Made by a program: the position numbers and the translations under genes. From NCBI RefSeq assembly GCF_037892195.1, contig NZ_JATACI010000002.1:1178001-1242000 (forward strand): 64,000 nucleotides of DNA, read 5' to 3'. The notes below the pieces were generated by a model. The model had not been told where the DNA came from, ran no database searches, and saw nothing but the letters and a program-made list of their open reading frames with translations. The DNA is from Yoonia sp. GPGPB17. GTDB taxonomy: Bacteria; Pseudomonadota; Alphaproteobacteria; Rhodobacterales; Rhodobacteraceae. Positions 17,359 to 23,278 of this stretch are shown piece after piece. The first letter of the stretch is position 1, and the number at the start of each line of letters is the position of its first letter.

Positions 17359-17445
17359 TCATATCTCTCCCTTGAGGGTTCTGGCCCCGCCCCTTATGAC
17401 GCGTCAGGAATCCTCTGCCCACCCTACATCAAGAAGGTGTTATCC

Positions 17446-18754
17446 ATGATCCCTCGTTATTCTCGCCCGGAAATGACCGCCATTTGGGAACCAGCCACGA
17501 AATTCCGCATCTGGTACGAGATCGAGGCCCACGCCTGTGACGCACAAGCAGCGCTGGGTGTGATCCCCAAGGAGAACGCCGAAGCAGTCTGGAAAGCCAA
17601 AGATGTCGAATTCGATGTGGCACGCATTGACGAAATCGAGGCGGTCACCAAACATGATGTCATCGCCTTCCTCACCCATCTGGCCGAACACATCGGATCA
17701 GACGATGCCCGGTTCGTGCACCAGGGCATGACGTCATCAGACGTGCTGGACACCACACTAAACGTCCAACTGGTCCGCGCCGCCGATCTGCTGATTGCCG
17801 ATATGGACCGCGTTCTAACCGCCCTGAAAACTCGCGCCTATGAGCATAAAGATACTGTCCGCATCGGGCGCAGCCACGGCATTCATGCCGAGCCAACCAC
17901 CATGGGCCTGACCTTTGCCCGCTTCTATGCGGAAATGGATCGCGGTCGTGCGCGCCTTGTGAACGCCCGCGCGGAGATCGCCACCGGTGCCATCTCGGGC
18001 GCTGTCGGTACTTTTGCCAACATCGACTCATCAGTCGAAGAACACGTCTGTGCGCAGCTGGGCCTCAAGCCCGAACCAATCAGCACCCAGGTCATTCCGC
18101 GCGACCGCCACGCGATGTTCTTTGCGACGCTCGGTGTGATTGCGTCCAGCATCGAAAACATCGCCACCGAGATCCGACACATGCAGCGGACCGAGGTGCT
18201 TGAAGCCGAAGAGTTCTTCTCGAAAGGCCAGAAAGGATCTTCCGCGATGCCACATAAACGCAACCCCGTGCTGACCGAAAACCTGACCGGTCTGGCCCGC
18301 CTGGTGCGCATGTCCGTCGTGCCTGCGATGGAAAACGTGGCGCTTTGGCATGAGCGTGACATCAGCCACTCGTCGGTGGAGCGCGCGATCGGACCAGACA
18401 CAACGGTCACCCTCGACTTCGCCCTGAACCGTCTTGCTTGGCGTCGTCGAAAAGCTGGTGATTTACCCCGACAACATGCTGACCAACATGAATAAATTCC
18501 GCGGCCTGATTATGTCGCAGCGGGTTCTTCTGGCCCTGACGCAAGCGGGCGTCAGCCGCGAAGACGCGTACAAACTGGTGCAGCGAAACGCCATGAAAGT
18601 GTGGGAACATGGGGCCGATTTCAAAACCGAACTCCTCGCCGATGCAGACGTTTTGGCCGCACTCTCTCCGGCGGAGATCGAAGAGAAATTCGATCTCGGG
18701 TATCACATGAAAAACGTTGATACGATTTTTGCGCGCGTCTTTGAGACACACTAG
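17446..18754 (+). pseudogene. purB: Adenylosuccinate lyase, interrupted by a one-base insertion
   Basis: PurB cleaves SAICAR and adenylosuccinate in purine synthesis. The reading frame from ATG 17446 (MIPRYSRPEMTAIW, ribosome-binding site AAGGTG) carries IGRSHGIHAEPTTMG and the signature SSAMPHKRNP with its catalytic serine loop. At 18438-18439 the text reads CTTGCTTGGC where CTTGCTGGC (LAG) would keep the frame. The C-terminal part (VVEKLVIYPDNMLTNMNKF to VFETH) continues in the next frame to 18754. Removing one T restores a full protein of about 435 residues. The gene is normally essential on minimal medium, so a sequencing error is far more likely than a real mutation. Confidence 0.93.
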
Positions 18755-18810: not shown

Positions 18811-19506
18811 CTAGATCTTGGATGGCGCGTGTACCGCACTTTGCGGCAAGGCATGGGTCGATTGCTTAAGACCGATAGGCTGTGTCGGTGTCACGTCCGC
18901 CTCACGCGAAGCTCTTGGCCTGATCCCAGCGATCTTACCTTTCATTGCAACATACTTCCGATTGTCATGCGCATTGATGTAGGGTTCGCCGATCGGATAA
19001 ACCGGGTATCCCAACTGGCGCATTGTGCGGGCAAACACCGGTGGGCAAAGCGCCATAATCTCGGTTCCGCCATGTTCGTGCGCTTGTGCAACAACACCGT
19101 CAAGCAGCATCGCCAAGCATTCAGAGCGTTCCGCGTGTGTCTTGATGTCTTCCGAAATCACGATGCGCGTTGCTTCCCAGATTGTGGGCGTGACTTCTGC
19201 CTCAGGCAGGATGTCCTCTGGGATGCCGATCAGTTTACCATCAACGGCATCACGTAACATATAAGTATGCGATCCCCATTGCGCGGTTGTTGCCATTGTG
19301 CGCATCCCGCCAACAACCTTACCGTCCTTCAAAACAAGCGAATAGTACGCCTTTGGGTTGTCGTATTGATCCATCTCCACATCATCGTCATGCGGGATGT
19401 CCCAGCCCAGCTGATCCACAAAAAACTGTTTGCGCAGCGCCAGGAACTCAAAGAACGCAGATCCGTACTTGTGCAGCTCTGTCAGGTTAAAAGTGATATT
19501 CTCCAT
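18811..19506 (-). CDS. luxI: Acyl-homoserine-lactone synthase (LuxI family)
   Basis: A 231-residue autoinducer synthase that makes an acyl-homoserine lactone from S-adenosylmethionine and acyl-ACP. The conserved catalytic residues are visible: R and F in LRKQFFVDQLGW, the tryptophan closing that motif, the aspartates of EMDQYD, R in GGMRTM, and E and R in WEATRIVIS. The start at ATG 19506 follows AGAGGGAAG; an in-frame start 22 codons up is less likely. It has a C-terminal extension of about 30 residues beyond the usual end at KYVAMKGK. It lies downstream of luxR on the same strand, with an inverted repeat between them. The acyl chain cannot be predicted. Confidence 0.93.
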   Translation of the reverse strand: MENITFNLTELHKYGSAFFEFLALRKQFFVDQLGWDIPHDDDVEMDQYDNPKAYYSLVLKDGKVVGGMRTMATTAQWGSHTYMLRDAVDGKLIGIPEDILPEAEVTPTIWEATRIVISEDIKTHAERSECLAMLLDGVVAQAHEHGGTEIMALCPPVFARTMRQLGYPVYPIGEPYINAHDNRKYVAMKGKIAGIRPRASREADVTPTQPIGLKQSTHALPQSAVHAPSKI

Positions 19507-19558
19507 AATCTTCCCTCTGGTTGTAGCCAATGTGGCGACGGCCCCCACCACCGCCGAT

Positions 19559-19581
19559 GTTAATGTCACCAAGACGTTAAC
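19559..19581. promoter_or_regulatory. Inverted repeat upstream of luxI (possible LuxR operator)
   Basis: Two 9-base arms (19559-19567 GTTAATGTC and 19573-19581 GACGTTAAC) match in 8 of 9 positions around a 5-base spacer, 53 bases before the luxI start. The size and place suit a lux-box-like operator, but the sequence is not the classical lux box. Confidence 0.5.
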
Positions 19582-19630
19582 AATTTAGGTCTAATTGTTC
19601 AGAAAGTAGAAAAAAAGGGATATGTGCTTT

Positions 19631-20239
19631 TCAGACCAGCCCGTACTGGTTAGCCAAGGCCGCAGCTTGCGTACTTGTTTTTGCACCCAGTTTAAGTTTG
19701 GCGTTTTTGAGCCGTTGCTTGACCGCACCCTCACTCACGCTCAACTCAAACGCGATTTCCTTGAGGCGCTTGCCGTCTTTGACCATGCCCAAGGCCTCTA
19801 GTTCAGCTTTGGTCAAATTCGTCGGAGGCGCCGTTTCATTGTGGCGGCGCGACAGATACGCCTGCAAAAGCTTGATCTCAAGATCGGTATATTCGCGGTC
19901 AGATCGCGTAAAAGATGCAAAGGATCGCTGCGCATCAGCACTGCTGTCGAACACAGAAACGGTCACGCCATACCGCATGCCAAAGGTCTGCGCCTGCGCG
20001 ATGATCCGCTTGGGATCATCAACGGGAAACTCGCTCCAACGGACGGCACCAATGTTGCTGTAGGCCCACCTAAGTACAGGATCAAACAAGGCAAATCGTT
20101 GTTTCGTGTAATGAGCCACCCAGTCTTTCGGCAGCTCATTCACTTCTTCCATCGGGAAGGCGAAGCCGATCCGCAACGCAATATAATGGCCGGACGGGGC
20201 GAGTTGCCCAATCTCATCCAGACCAAGAAGTTTCGACAT
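19631..20239 (-). CDS. luxR: LuxR-family autoinducer-responsive transcriptional regulator
   Basis: A 202-residue regulator. Residues about 10-135 form the autoinducer-binding domain (KDWVAHYTKQRFALFDPVLRW, then RWSEF and the GMRYGVTV block). Residues about 140-202 form the LuxR helix-turn-helix (LTKAELEALGMV, KRLKEIAFELSVSEGAVKQR, KLGAKTSTQAAALA). It is directly upstream of luxI on the same strand, the common arrangement for a cognate pair, and head to head with a second autoinducer-binding protein. A 12-base inverted repeat (20244-20255) sits at its ribosome-binding region. Confidence 0.93.
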   Translation of the reverse strand: MSKLLGLDEIGQLAPSGHYIALRIGFAFPMEEVNELPKDWVAHYTKQRFALFDPVLRWAYSNIGAVRWSEFPVDDPKRIIAQAQTFGMRYGVTVSVFDSSADAQRSFASFTRSDREYTDLEIKLLQAYLSRRHNETAPPTNLTKAELEALGMVKDGKRLKEIAFELSVSEGAVKQRLKNAKLKLGAKTSTQAAALANQYGLV

Positions 20240-20243
20240 TCAG

Positions 20244-20255
20244 CTACCCCGGTAG
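20244..20255 (-). promoter_or_regulatory. Short inverted repeat in the luxR leader
   Basis: CTACC-CC-GGTAG ends five bases before the luxR start codon (on the minus strand) and covers its possible GGGGTAG ribosome-binding site. It could be an operator or a small hairpin. Five-base arms are weak evidence. Confidence 0.3.
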
Positions 20256-20378
20256 AACCTTCCTCACGAAAAGCTCTTGTTCATATGACCGTGTTAGCCC
20301 TAAACTATCAAGACCACGATCAGCGGGACATTATTTCGTTATTGTACGGCTTGGCAACTGGAAAGCGAGTTGAGTTAA

Positions 20379-20867
20379 ATGAGTTCTACGCAATTTGAGA
20401 TTAGCGAAACACTAGGCAAGCTGCACGAGATCGCACCAGCAGGGTACGCATTGGGCTTTCATGTGGAATATACCACCCCTAAATTCGTCTTTCAGACGTA
20501 CCCAAAGGCTTGGCTAGACTACTACTCCAGCAACGGATTGATCATGAGCGACCCAATGGTCGCCTGGGGTTTTGAGTTTACCGGCAGCCAGAAATGGTCA
20601 GATTTGGAAGATCCCGCTGGCGTCATGCAGAAAGCCGCAGACTATGGCATGAAGTATGGTGTTGTGATCGCCGTCGCATCGGATGACAGCCGCAGTATTG
20701 GCGGGTTCGCCCATCCTGACCGCGAATTCACGGACGAAGAGACGGCACAGATAGAAGCGATGGTCATCAGTATCCATGACAACACCGCAGATACCGCTCA
20801 GCTTGATGAAGGCACGGTCGAACAACTTAAAAAAATGTCAGTTATGGTTACGCATCCGGGTTCCTGA
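20379..20867 (+). CDS. LuxR-type autoinducer-binding protein lacking the DNA-binding domain
   Basis: A 162-residue protein homologous along its whole length to the autoinducer-binding half of the neighbouring LuxR: PKAWLDYYSSNGLIMSDPMVAW, KWSDL, YGMKYGVVIAV, DSRSIGGFAHPDREFTDEE. It stops at LDEGTVEQLKKMSVMV, where the other protein enters its first HTH helix. No HTH sequence follows in any frame: only 48 bases remain before fliG, too few for the missing 60 residues. It is therefore probably a genuine stand-alone sensor or a dominant-negative partner, like the truncated TrlR of Agrobacterium. It is divergent from luxR and may be co-transcribed with fliG. Confidence 0.88.
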   Translation: MSSTQFEISETLGKLHEIAPAGYALGFHVEYTTPKFVFQTYPKAWLDYYSSNGLIMSDPMVAWGFEFTGSQKWSDLEDPAGVMQKAADYGMKYGVVIAVASDDSRSIGGFAHPDREFTDEETAQIEAMVISIHDNTADTAQLDEGTVEQLKKMSVMVTHPGS

Positions 20868-20915
20868 CGCCCTGTACTAACCAAACTTTTACGGTCAGCA
20901 GGCTATACGTGTTTC

Positions 20916-21977
20916 ATGAATATGCACGTATCGCCTTTGTCTGAACAGCCACTGACGCGGCGCCGAAAGGCCGCCATGATTATTCAGATGTTGCTGGAGG
21001 ATGGAAACACCCTCGCTCTTGGTCAGCTGCCTGAATCACTGCAACTCCAGCTCACTGACGAATTGGGCACGCTCAGGCTGGTGGACAAAGCCACTGTTTC
21101 TGCCGTCGCCGAAGAATTCACAGCCGAGTTGGAGGCTGTTGGCCTCACCGCCCCTGGTACCCGCGAGGGGGCGATCACCGCACTTGCTGACCATCTCAGC
21201 CCCGGCATCGCTAACAACCTGCGCAACCAGCTGGAAAGCGTACGCAATGGCGATCACTGGCCCATCGTGGTTGATCTGAGTATTGAGCGGATTCTTGCCA
21301 TTATGATGGCCGAAAGCACCGCAATCTGTGCGGTTGCCCTATCAAAACTGCCGGTTTCAAAGGCGGCAGAGGTCTTGTCACGGACACCCGGGGAACGTGC
21401 GCGCCGAATCACATACGCAATGTCGCAAACCGAAAACATCCCACCTGATGCGGTCCGCCGCATAGGGGCCGCCTTGGCAAAGGAATACGGTCATCCGGCT
21501 GATGTTGCCTTTGACAAAGCACCGGTGCAGCGTTTGGGAGCTATCCTTAACTCCACAGTCACCGACACACGTGAAGACGTTCTTGATGGCCTGAGCCAAG
21601 AGGACGCTGATTTTGCCACAAATGTCCGCAAGGCGATTTTCACCTACAAAGATATCGCCCCACGCGTCAAACCCACCGACATCCCCAATGCAATCCGCAA
21701 TGTGGATAGCGATGTGTTGATCACAGCGATCGCAGCCGGGTTGAAAGGCGACGATACGCTGGTGGCATCGACAGAGTTCATCCTCGGAAGCATATCTCAG
21801 CGTATGGCAACGCAGTTACGCGAAGACGCCGAAGAACGTGGCCATGTTAAAAAAGCCGATGCAGAAAAGGCGATGTCAGCGATCACCACGGCCATCCGCG
21901 AAATGGTTGATTCTGGCGTCATTACCCTGATTGACCCGGACGAGGTGGACGAGGACGACAGCGACCAGGGCGAATAG
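20916..21977 (+). CDS. fliG: Flagellar motor switch protein FliG
   Basis: A 353-residue protein of the flagellar C-ring that contacts the stator and sets torque. The N-terminal RRRKAAMIIQMLLEDGNTLAL, the middle domain AALSKLPVSKAAEVLSRTP-like region and the C-terminal torque domain are recognisable. The charged ridge includes RKAIFTYKDIAPR, ILGSISQRMATQLREDAEERG and the acidic tail (DPDEVDEDDSDQGE). No other flagellar gene is nearby, so it is either an isolated copy or a paralogue. It follows the HTH-less LuxR-type gene by 48 bases, which suggests a possible link between quorum sensing and motility. Confidence 0.9.
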   Translation: MNMHVSPLSEQPLTRRRKAAMIIQMLLEDGNTLALGQLPESLQLQLTDELGTLRLVDKATVSAVAEEFTAELEAVGLTAPGTREGAITALADHLSPGIANNLRNQLESVRNGDHWPIVVDLSIERILAIMMAESTAICAVALSKLPVSKAAEVLSRTPGERARRITYAMSQTENIPPDAVRRIGAALAKEYGHPADVAFDKAPVQRLGAILNSTVTDTREDVLDGLSQEDADFATNVRKAIFTYKDIAPRVKPTDIPNAIRNVDSDVLITAIAAGLKGDDTLVASTEFILGSISQRMATQLREDAEERGHVKKADAEKAMSAITTAIREMVDSGVITLIDPDEVDEDDSDQGE

Positions 21978-22016: not shown

Positions 22017-22364
22017 ATGACTGAAGACACCGCATTCGATGGACGCCGCTGGCATGATATGGGGGGCAGCGCCGCTGGCCCGGTGCCCACTGACCAGCAT
22101 GATTTTTCACTTTGGGAGAAGCGTGTTGATGCGCTGATGATTATCACCTCTGGAAAAGGGCACTTCACCGTCGATGGCCTGCGCCGTGTACTCGAAGATA
22201 TGGGTGAAGAGGCTTTTGAGACGATGACTTACTATGAGCGTTGGATCGCATCGGTGAACCAGAACCTGATTGAAGCTGGGGTTTACACCACCGCCGAGCT
22301 TGCGAAACGCATGACCGACGTGGCCGCACGTGGCGCCACTTATGGCGAGGCGGCAAGTGAGTGA
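22017..22364 (+). CDS. Nitrile hydratase beta-subunit N-terminal domain protein (thiocyanate hydrolase beta-like)
   Basis: A 115-residue protein equal to the N-terminal half of a nitrile hydratase beta subunit: RRWHDMGGSAAGPVPT, LWEKRVDALMIITS and YYERWIASVNQNLIEAGVYTTAELAKRM. In thiocyanate hydrolase and toyocamycin nitrile hydratase this half is a separate subunit, and the gene order there (N-half, C-half, alpha-type) is the order seen here. The gene overlaps the next by eight bases (GTGAGTGA). Because single-base indels are common in this sequence, the split could also be an artefact: removing one base would fuse the two halves. Confidence 0.78.
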   Translation: MTEDTAFDGRRWHDMGGSAAGPVPTDQHDFSLWEKRVDALMIITSGKGHFTVDGLRRVLEDMGEEAFETMTYYERWIASVNQNLIEAGVYTTAELAKRMTDVAARGATYGEAASE

Positions 22365-22644
22365 GCGCCAGTATATGCGGGTTCGGGCAGACATGCCGCC
22401 GGGCCATGTACGTACACCGAACTACCTGCGCGGCAAGGTCGGTTGGGTCGAGCGGACCCTTGGTCCCTTCCCCAACCCGGAACAACTCGCCTATGGCAAC
22501 AAGGCCGATCCGCTCCCGCTGATGCGGGTTCGGTTTTCCATGGCAGAAGTCTGGGGTGACACATCTCAGACCTCTAACGACACGATCGATGCAGAAATTT
22601 ATAGCCACTGGCTCGAACCGGCAGAGGCCCCACATGCCACATGA
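22357..22644 (+). CDS. Nitrile hydratase beta-subunit C-terminal SH3-like protein (thiocyanate hydrolase alpha-like)
   Basis: A 95-residue protein starting with GTG at 22357 (GTG 22361 is out of frame). It has the SH3-like barrel of the nitrile hydratase beta C-terminus: MRVRADMPPGHVRTPNYLRGKVGWVER, then FSMAEVWGD and the end YSHWLEPAE. No start codon has a clean ribosome-binding site, which fits translation coupled to the upstream gene. It overlaps the following gene by 11 bases. Together the three genes match the alpha/beta/gamma layout of thiocyanate hydrolase. Confidence 0.72.
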   Translation: MSERQYMRVRADMPPGHVRTPNYLRGKVGWVERTLGPFPNPEQLAYGNKADPLPLMRVRFSMAEVWGDTSQTSNDTIDAEIYSHWLEPAEAPHAT

Positions 22645-23278
22645 TCATCACGACCATTTATCACCCTCGGGTCACCCCTACCGACCAGATGACGATCACC
22701 CGCTGACCTATTGGCAACAAATGGAAATCGCCGTTCGCGAGTTGCTGATCGAAAAAGGTGTAACAACGGCACAGGAGATTGCAGCACAGATCGACGCGAT
22801 GGATGCGCGTAGCCCGGCAAACGGCGCGGCTGTCGTGGCGCGCGCCTGGACCGACCCAGTGTTCCGCGATGCTTTGCGCGCGGACGCCAGTGCTGCCACC
22901 CGCGAGATGGGTTTTGACATCGGGCCAATGCGCCTGATCGCGCTGGAAAACACTGACACAGAACACAATGTCGTCGTCTGCACCCTATGTTCTTGCTATC
23001 CCCGCAACCTTCTGGGCTTGCCCCCCGATTGGTACAAATCCCGGGCCTATAGATCCCGCACCGTCAAAGAACCACGCAAAGTGCTTGCTGAGTTCGGCGT
23101 CACGCTACCCGAAACCACCACGGTGCGCGTCCATGACAGCACCGCTGATATGCGGTATGTCGTGATCCCTGCACGGCCCGCCGATACCGAAGGTTGGAGC
23201 GCTGATGACCTGGCCAAGCTGGTTACCCGCGACAGCATGATCGGCACCGGCTTGCCCAAATCGCCAGACGCTGCGTGA
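22634..23278 (+). CDS. Cobalt-type nitrile hydratase alpha subunit / thiocyanate hydrolase gamma-like
   Basis: A 214-residue catalytic subunit. The metal-binding claw VVCTLCSCYP has Thr between the first two cysteines, the form found in cobalt-type enzymes and thiocyanate hydrolase; iron-type enzymes usually have Ser. It is followed by the conserved LLGLPPDWYKSRAYRSR and EPRKVLAEFG. The N-terminus is histidine-rich (MPHDHHDHLSPSGHPYRPDDDH), which might help metal loading. The reaction is either nitrile to amide or thiocyanate to carbonyl sulfide and ammonia; the sequence alone cannot decide. No metallochaperone gene is adjacent. Confidence 0.88.
   Translation: MPHDHHDHLSPSGHPYRPDDDHPLTYWQQMEIAVRELLIEKGVTTAQEIAAQIDAMDARSPANGAAVVARAWTDPVFRDALRADASAATREMGFDIGPMRLIALENTDTEHNVVVCTLCSCYPRNLLGLPPDWYKSRAYRSRTVKEPRKVLAEFGVTLPETTTVRVHDSTADMRYVVIPARPADTEGWSADDLAKLVTRDSMIGTGLPKSPDAA

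Follow-up and report, generated by a model that had tools for sequence, protein, structure and literature searches.

A LuxR-type protein without a DNA-binding domain, a probable CerN-like antagonist of the LuxR it faces, beside luxI and fliG in Yoonia sp. GPGPB17

CerM of Cereibacter sphaeroides is a LuxR-type protein that binds DNA without its N-acyl-homoserine lactone (AHL) signal. Its counterpart CerN, described with it in 2024, retains CerM in pull-downs when AHL is present and not otherwise, and together with AHL frees CerM from its DNA site, as seen in gel shifts and in a reporter strain; loss of CerN or of CerI severely reduces swimming, which is restored by loss of CerM (PMC11655674). 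TrlR of the Agrobacterium octopine Ti plasmids is likewise of the LuxR type, lacks a DNA-binding domain and counteracts a full-length LuxR (PMC11655674, PMC13043044); it shares 88% identity with TraR and inhibits a regulator that depends on AHL (PMC11655674). A gene of this kind lies in a 64,000-nucleotide stretch of the 4.2 Mb genome of Yoonia sp. GPGPB17 (contig NZ_JATACI010000002.1, positions 1,178,001 to 1,242,000; hereafter the window, in whose positions all coordinates are given). It encodes a protein of 162 aa, here termed the half-receptor (20379..20867, plus strand), for which CerN/CerM and not TrlR is the best functional precedent. By analogy with that pair the half-receptor appears, on balance, to be a dedicated antagonist that binds AHL and acts on the LuxR of the divergent neighbouring gene, the two being CerN-like and CerM-like respectively; when AHL-bound it would remove this LuxR from DNA.

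The half-receptor matches PF03472 Autoind_bind with 56.2 bits, which is its only Pfam match up to an E value of 0.01; no GerE or helix-turn-helix (HTH) domain was matched in the protein. RhlR, SdiA, LasR and TraR are among the PDB matches of its profile. The facing luxR (19631..20239, minus strand) lies across a divergent intergenic region of 139 bp (20240..20378) and encodes a 202 aa protein of the R type, the CerM-like partner, with both PF03472 Autoind_bind (66.4 bits) and the HTH domain PF00196 GerE (35.3 bits). It is accompanied by luxI (18811..19509, minus strand), which encodes an AHL synthase of 232 aa from the ATG at 19509 (PF00765 Autoind_synth, 60.6 bits). On the other side, on the same strand as the half-receptor gene and 48 bp after it, is fliG (20916..21977, plus strand; Pfam FliG_N, FliG_M and FliG_C). 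Gene calls and Pfam therefore agree with the initial annotation, made from the sequence alone, in which luxI and luxR lie together and face a 162-residue homologue of the autoinducer-binding part only.

At low cell density and without signal, LuxR would most likely sit on DNA. Once LuxI makes enough AHL, the half-receptor would bind it and, in this form, pair with LuxR through the autoinducer-binding domains; the mixed dimer would take LuxR off DNA because it has one DNA-binding domain only. Motility might then be controlled by way of CtrA. The AHL-dependent binding, the removal from DNA and the control of motility via CtrA are modelled on CerN/CerM, AHL-dependent binding having been demonstrated for CerN. 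The present analysis supports the proposal by gene content, conserved truncation, selection, the AHL pocket, family-wide pairing, a clade common to LuxR and the CerM-like protein, and similarity to the CerN-like protein.

The six pocket residues W57, Y61, D70, P71, W85 and G113 (TraR numbering, list from PMC11655674) are intact in both the half-receptor and the LuxR of the window. Across the loci collected from the family they are intact in 121 of 126 half-receptors and 118 of 126 R-type LuxRs, counts in which one genome of another genus (G058) appears twice in each set (as L052 and L058) and in which two of the R-type rows (L141 and L151) come from stretches with no half-receptor gene. With its pocket complete and its HTH missing, the half-receptor is probably able to bind the signal though not DNA.

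It was previously proposed that the protein ends where the first HTH helix would start, which does not hold. In an hhalign alignment residues 142-151 of the half-receptor fall on residues 142-151 of LuxR, so the start of the first HTH helix is kept, and in the genus alignment this remnant is followed by a conserved tail, M-S-I-M-V-T-H-P-G-S (helix and tail comprise residues 142-162, 20802..20864, plus strand). An AlphaFold2 model with a predicted local distance difference test score (pLDDT) of 88.2 and a predicted template modelling score of 0.83 shows a helix at residues 144-158 with middling confidence, the C-terminal block having a pLDDT of 64-69. A profile of the DNA-binding domain found no match in the three forward frames of 20700-21500 or the three reverse frames of 20300-21500 (best 2.7 bits, E 0.077); it scores 141.7 bits on the window luxR, itself among the profile's source sequences.

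The gene is widely conserved within the genus. A half-receptor match was obtained in 52 of 55 same-genus genomes, and the three without a match (G025, G037 and G054) are 84, 92 and 72% complete. Loci were read in the window, in 48 of the 52 matching genus genomes and in G058, 50 in total. All 50 carry an HTH-less gene, of 154-168 aa and exactly 162 aa in 37 of them, together with a LuxR of 201-203 aa that is head to head with it in all 48 genus genomes read; the spacing between the two is 121-154 bp in 49 loci and approximately 1.2 kb in L038. In seven of ten species pairs the ratio of nonsynonymous to synonymous substitution rates (dN/dS) of the half-receptor gene is 0.031-0.137, dS being saturated in the other three pairs, and the gene is under purifying selection. 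Close relatives of the half-receptor are found in Yoonia, Loktanella and Roseobacter sp. CCS2.

A decaying pseudogene or an assembly artefact that has lost its HTH might be suspected, as the copy of the fragmentary genome G049 has an in-frame stop and the purB gene of the window is frame-broken, from which it follows that single-base errors or breaks do occur in this DNA. Nevertheless, the gene ends at nearly the same point in 48 further genus genomes, it is under purifying selection and no HTH remains lie downstream, so that this explanation is hardly credible and, with a frameshift or a lost HTH, is ruled out. The earlier argument that a frameshift does not explain the short protein is thus strengthened by the HTH-less genes at 50 of 50 loci, by the matches in 52 of 55 genomes and by the empty surrounding frames, and the comparison supports the view that the truncation is old and has been selected for.

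The neighbourhood is conserved as well. A LuxI match was found at all 30 loci of a first set, which includes the window, and at 19 of the 20 loci of a second set, the miss being L049, whose stretch begins approximately 0.6 kb beyond luxR. fliG is present at 49 of the 50 loci, G058 being the exception, and the order luxR, half-receptor gene, fliG is constant in the 49 genus loci. There the half-receptor gene and fliG share a strand with gaps of 26-106 nt according to the authors' open reading frame calls, the gaps of opposite-strand loci in the first set being taken from coordinates. Conservation beside luxI and fliG, which had been suggested as a check, is therefore borne out in related genomes, while the label of a quorum-sensing island is unfit, as luxR, the half-receptor gene and fliG stay together as one chromosomal block at all of the genus loci read. 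In the second set purB lies on the luxI side of the stretch at 18 of 20 loci (1.6 kb from luxI at L050); the exceptions are L049, whose stretch ends near luxR, and L052 of another genus.

The comparison with CerN/CerM was made through a locus, L133, where the gene for an HTH-less protein (160 aa) is head to head with one for a LuxR carrying W57F, followed by a second LuxR and a LuxI. The Pfam scores of these four genes are 65.7, 46.2+40.2, 128.9+61.8 and 282.8, next to 66.1, 47.5+42.9, 128.1+63.4 and 281.5 published for cerN, cerM, cerR and cerI (Table 2 of PMC11655674). From its layout, its scores and the W57F exchange L133 is taken to be the cerN-cerM-cerR-cerI cluster of C. sphaeroides, and all sequence comparisons with CerN and CerM were run on it. 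In both systems an HTH-less autoinducer-binding protein of similar length (160 aa for the CerN-like protein and 162 aa here) is the head-to-head neighbour of an R-clade LuxR and has its pocket residues intact. The window LuxR is 43% identical to the CerM-like protein over 178 aligned positions and the half-receptor is 35% identical to the CerN-like protein over 139. The latter alignment extends to residue 160 of 160, which indicates that the CerN-like protein also ends just after the helix remnant; it has this helix region but another tail.

The relation of the half-receptor to its own partner separates it from TrlR. From 41 of 124 pairs and ten full-length receptors, chosen by hand, a tree was built with 92 rows and 134 columns. 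The ten are GtaR/LuxR1-type LuxRs of 203-205 aa encoded beside a luxI and possessing the HTH domain that the half-receptor lacks ('GtaR-type' is a putative name that rests on the orthogroups of PMC11655674, not on GtaR of R. capsulatus itself). All 41 R-type LuxRs, including that of the window and the CerM-like one, form one clade (support 100/99) and the GtaR-type receptors form another (100/99). Over residues 10-138 the mean identity of the half-receptors is 32% with their own partners and 40% with GtaR-type receptors, and 39 of 41 are nearer the latter; the window half-receptor is 29% identical to the adjacent LuxR and 38-49% to the ten, which are its closest full-length relatives by identity. 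On these comparisons the half-receptor is no truncated copy of its partner. Greater identity to the GtaR type is no proof of descent from it, because the stem of the R clade is long and a rooted tree places the R type with the GtaR type.

These data bear on the proposal that the half-receptor may compete for the signal or form inactive heterodimers as TrlR does. In such a dominant-negative arrangement LuxR would be an AHL-dependent activator, with luxI among its targets, and AHL-bound heterodimers without activity would set a threshold or shut the circuit. The parts list is the same, and as the LuxR pocket is complete, W57 included, LuxR may need AHL. However, the nearest characterised relatives behave in the opposite way, CerM being on DNA without AHL (PMC11655674), and TrlR is a near copy of TraR whereas the half-receptor is closer to ten other receptors than to its own partner. 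This possibility is therefore considered unlikely, though it is the first among the alternatives. That the half-receptor acts by interacting with the adjacent LuxR remains the best reading, but TrlR is a poor model for it: it is an 88% copy of TraR that blocks an AHL-dependent regulator, while the half-receptor stands at 29% to its partner and its nearest characterised relative, CerN, acts with AHL on an AHL-free DNA binder. As a family member TrlR was rejected as a direct parallel, its mechanism being kept as a rival.

Several observations weigh against a CerN-like switch at the Yoonia locus. The partner LuxR retains W57, as do 125 of the 126 R-type LuxRs, the single W57F being that of the CerM-like protein of L133. 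In CerM this exchange was proposed by its discoverers to lower its own affinity for AHL and perhaps to be important for the affinity difference (PMC11655674); the window LuxR may consequently bind AHL itself and the logic of the circuit may differ. Even for CerM, AHL alone weakens DNA binding in vitro, with a smaller effect than CerN and AHL together (PMC11655674). cerR and cerI follow cerM, whereas the window has a different LuxI, which shares just 31% identity with the CerI-like protein, and its locus lacks a CerR-type gene. The published CerM site has no match in the window at up to three mismatches, where 1.05 would be expected by chance. The conserved tail, searched for with the authors' own loose pattern, is matched in 86 of 126 half-receptors and fails in 40, the CerN-like protein among them. 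The half-receptors do not group cleanly either: in the tree described above the 41 rows need two changes, with the GtaR type among them, and come together in 3% of 200 bootstrap trees, and a single half-receptor clade is not rejected but also not shown (approximately unbiased test, p 0.37). An earlier, quick tree had as outgroup two LuxRs of the Yoonia genome itself and two CerR-type rows, all four of which were dropped from the second; in it the R clade is fully supported, the R and GtaR types group (Shimodaira-Hasegawa-like approximate likelihood ratio test 94) and the half-receptors need four changes, two long-branched rows from the same genome among them. A single origin of the half-receptor and CerN is accordingly unproven.

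Outside the genus the pairing is the most stable feature. At a threshold of 1e-12 the half-receptor profile matched 191 of 394 family genomes, full-length receptors among them. Other genera yielded 76 HTH-less loci in 74 genomes. Of 392 genera sampled in the rest of the family, 74 or more have the LuxR pair, a lower bound since the loci are the best profile matches plus stretches chosen by hand from match tables and not a random sample. A further 12 of the 88 stretches from outside the genus have no HTH-less gene by the cut-offs used, ten having a full-length GtaR-type receptor and two (L141 and L151) another LuxR alone. An R-type LuxR is in the stretch at 74 of the 76 loci and, over all collected loci, at 124 of the 126 that have a half-receptor gene (one genome counted twice). 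The two genes are head to head at 70 of the 76 loci by script, or 71 with L110, which the script labelled 'tail' owing to an over-long reading frame and which was assigned by eye; they are in tandem at three. Within stretches that reach 1.5-3.5 kb, on which these counts depend, LuxI was seen at 62 loci and fliG, on the same strand and downstream of the half-receptor gene, at 25; a CerR-type second LuxR occurs at six. The unit that stays together is therefore the LuxR pair, with fliG a neighbour in part of the family. In the three tandem loci (L096, L100 and L103, from three other genera) the pocket glycine column is a tryptophan in the authors' alignment. Among 289 genomes of the class searched at 1e-8, half-receptor matches were restricted to the Yoonia genome itself and one of the same genus; two others of the family had none, nor had the remaining 285, 267 of which are not listed by name and are placed after the outside-family rows.

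The constancy of the pair also bears on the idea that the half-receptor is mainly a sink or buffer for AHL that makes no contact with LuxR. An intact pocket without a DNA-binding domain would suit such a role. A sink, however, need not stay beside one type of LuxR, yet an R-type LuxR accompanies nearly every locus outside the genus, and CerN does bind CerM (PMC11655674); a sink is thus improbable. For the preferred reading, an AHL-bound antagonist that releases LuxR from DNA, the same constancy invites an extension. LuxR regulators that occupy DNA free of signal and HTH-less AHL sensors, nearer the GtaR type, that strip them from it may be a standard two-receptor switch of the whole family with CerN/CerM as one case. 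This is put forward tentatively, at somewhat less than an even chance. As W57F is confined to the CerM-like partner, the two receptors would have to owe their different roles to something else, for example the C-terminal helix and tail, and the general cause of receptor asymmetry must lie elsewhere. The collected pairs (124 of 126 loci) argue against W57F as the general reason and form a comparative set for testing what CerM/CerN shows only once. Quorum sensing in these marine bacteria is commonly interpreted from luxR-luxI pairs only, and if the HTH-less partner is indeed the sensor of the signal then control would have the opposite sign in many of them; if the two-receptor switch holds, CerN/CerM would be one instance of a family-wide rule.

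The position immediately before fliG had been taken to suggest that the signal may control motility. The adjacency is constant in all 49 genus loci, but it was seen at just 25 of the 76 loci from other genera, in stretches of 1.5-3.5 kb, and no FliG match was found in the 11-kb stretch of L133. A more direct version, in which the half-receptor acts with the product of fliG from the same operon and AHL is brought to bear on the flagellar switch itself, would accord with the shared strand and short gaps throughout the genus and with the window fliG being the single FliG_C match in the genome (96% complete), 1.9 Mb from fliF on the same contig. The latter distance indicates that a flagellar gene set exists and that this fliG is separate from fliF. 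Since the link to fliG is limited to a minority of loci outside the genus and the target of the characterised relative, which has this layout, is a transcription factor (PMC11655674), direct action on the switch is very improbable.

The locus has been drawn before. Topology D of Roseobacter luxRI loci consists of fliG in the opposite orientation, luxRI and adenylosuccinate lyase, and the accompanying table gives two luxR loci beside luxI for SKA53 and CCS2 (Cude and Buchan 2013, PMC3824088), both of whose loci (L178 and L158) came up among the half-receptor matches. Judging from its position, the second 'luxR' of topology D would be the half-receptor gene. The word 'truncated' is absent from the text of that survey, and its topology section and appendix do not state the loss of the HTH from the second luxR. 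Group 4 of the LuxR solos, from Loktanella and Rubellimicrobium, is given as 'fliG - [hp - abd] - luxR solo - asl' (Subramoni et al. 2015, PMC4338825). The same survey notes that LuxRs with only the autoinducer-binding domain (ABD) frequently have a LuxR close by, and it reports luxR/luxI at the group 4 locus of O. antarcticus. It is thus the same locus with an abd gene between fliG and luxR, although listed as a solo, whereas the window has a luxI. The window has the order fliG, abd gene, luxR, purB, with luxR opposite to fliG and purB frame-broken. Both surveys raise the fliG neighbour and motility (PMC3824088, PMC4338825). The half-receptor is therefore a real but not unprecedented part, the locus and the truncated gene being already in print.

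A further comparison, by description only, can be made with LuxB (Dshi_4067) of Dinoroseobacter shibae, an autoinducer-binding protein without a DNA-binding domain whose gene is likewise beside a luxI (PMC4046655). In contrast to the half-receptor gene it is plasmid-borne, with luxI3, and its expression is lowered in CtrA-relay mutants (PMC4046655). A search of plasmids with the half-receptor returned 45 records, all below 60% identity, and LuxB was not seen among the 40 of the 45 matches listed, for which ten organism names are given, Dinoroseobacter not among them, and one further organism is nameless. No link of the present loci to CerN/CerM was found in the open-licence literature. By word search a 2026 review of LuxR interactors names TrlR and not CerN (PMC13043044), and a 2014 review of roseobacter quorum sensing contains neither 'fliG' nor 'truncated' (PMC3907830). 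A survey of roseobacter AHLs reports many different AHLs in Loktanella isolates, with none tied to the window luxI in the part consulted (PMC6356624).

The divergent region between luxR and the half-receptor gene contains two candidate regulatory features. A 20-nt element (20351..20370, plus strand) that ends 8 bp before the half-receptor start is conserved through most aligned genus loci, far above most of the intergenic region, and is recognisable by eye in many other genera; it occurs once in the genome even with three mismatches, against three occurrences of the reversed pattern. In the luxR leader (20240-20300, minus strand) two short inverted-repeat arms vary together between species. 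Pairing of arms from the same species exceeds cross-species pairing, with 0 of 2000 permutations as high; the best stem has a mean of 4.5 bp and is 3 bp or shorter in 12 of 37 species, and RNAalifold gave no consensus structure in this leader. The repeat may serve as an operator or as an RNA hairpin. A scan of 19400-21050 found three promoter-like sites (1.2 in shuffles), one of which, at 20357-20330 on the minus strand with 10 of 12 matches, points toward luxR from within the divergent region; it gave no plus-strand site before the half-receptor gene, and terminators numbered two against 2.1 in shuffles.

The remaining features concern neighbouring genes. In the window purB, the gene of adenylosuccinate lyase (17437-18754, plus strand), is split into two reading frames with a break near 18434-18438, which may reflect either an error of sequencing or assembly or a naturally broken frame, in a gene that is normally important; in relatives where it is complete purB is a single frame of at least 433 aa. 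A further LuxR-type gene of the Yoonia genome (G000:C3:150839-151210, L004), in a 229-aa frame on a contig of 154 kb, is distantly related to the half-receptor (51 bits). Directly 3' of fliG the window encodes the beta (N-terminal) and alpha subunits of nitrile hydratase (22017-23278, plus strand), and half of the second set of loci (10 of 20) likewise has both genes after fliG.

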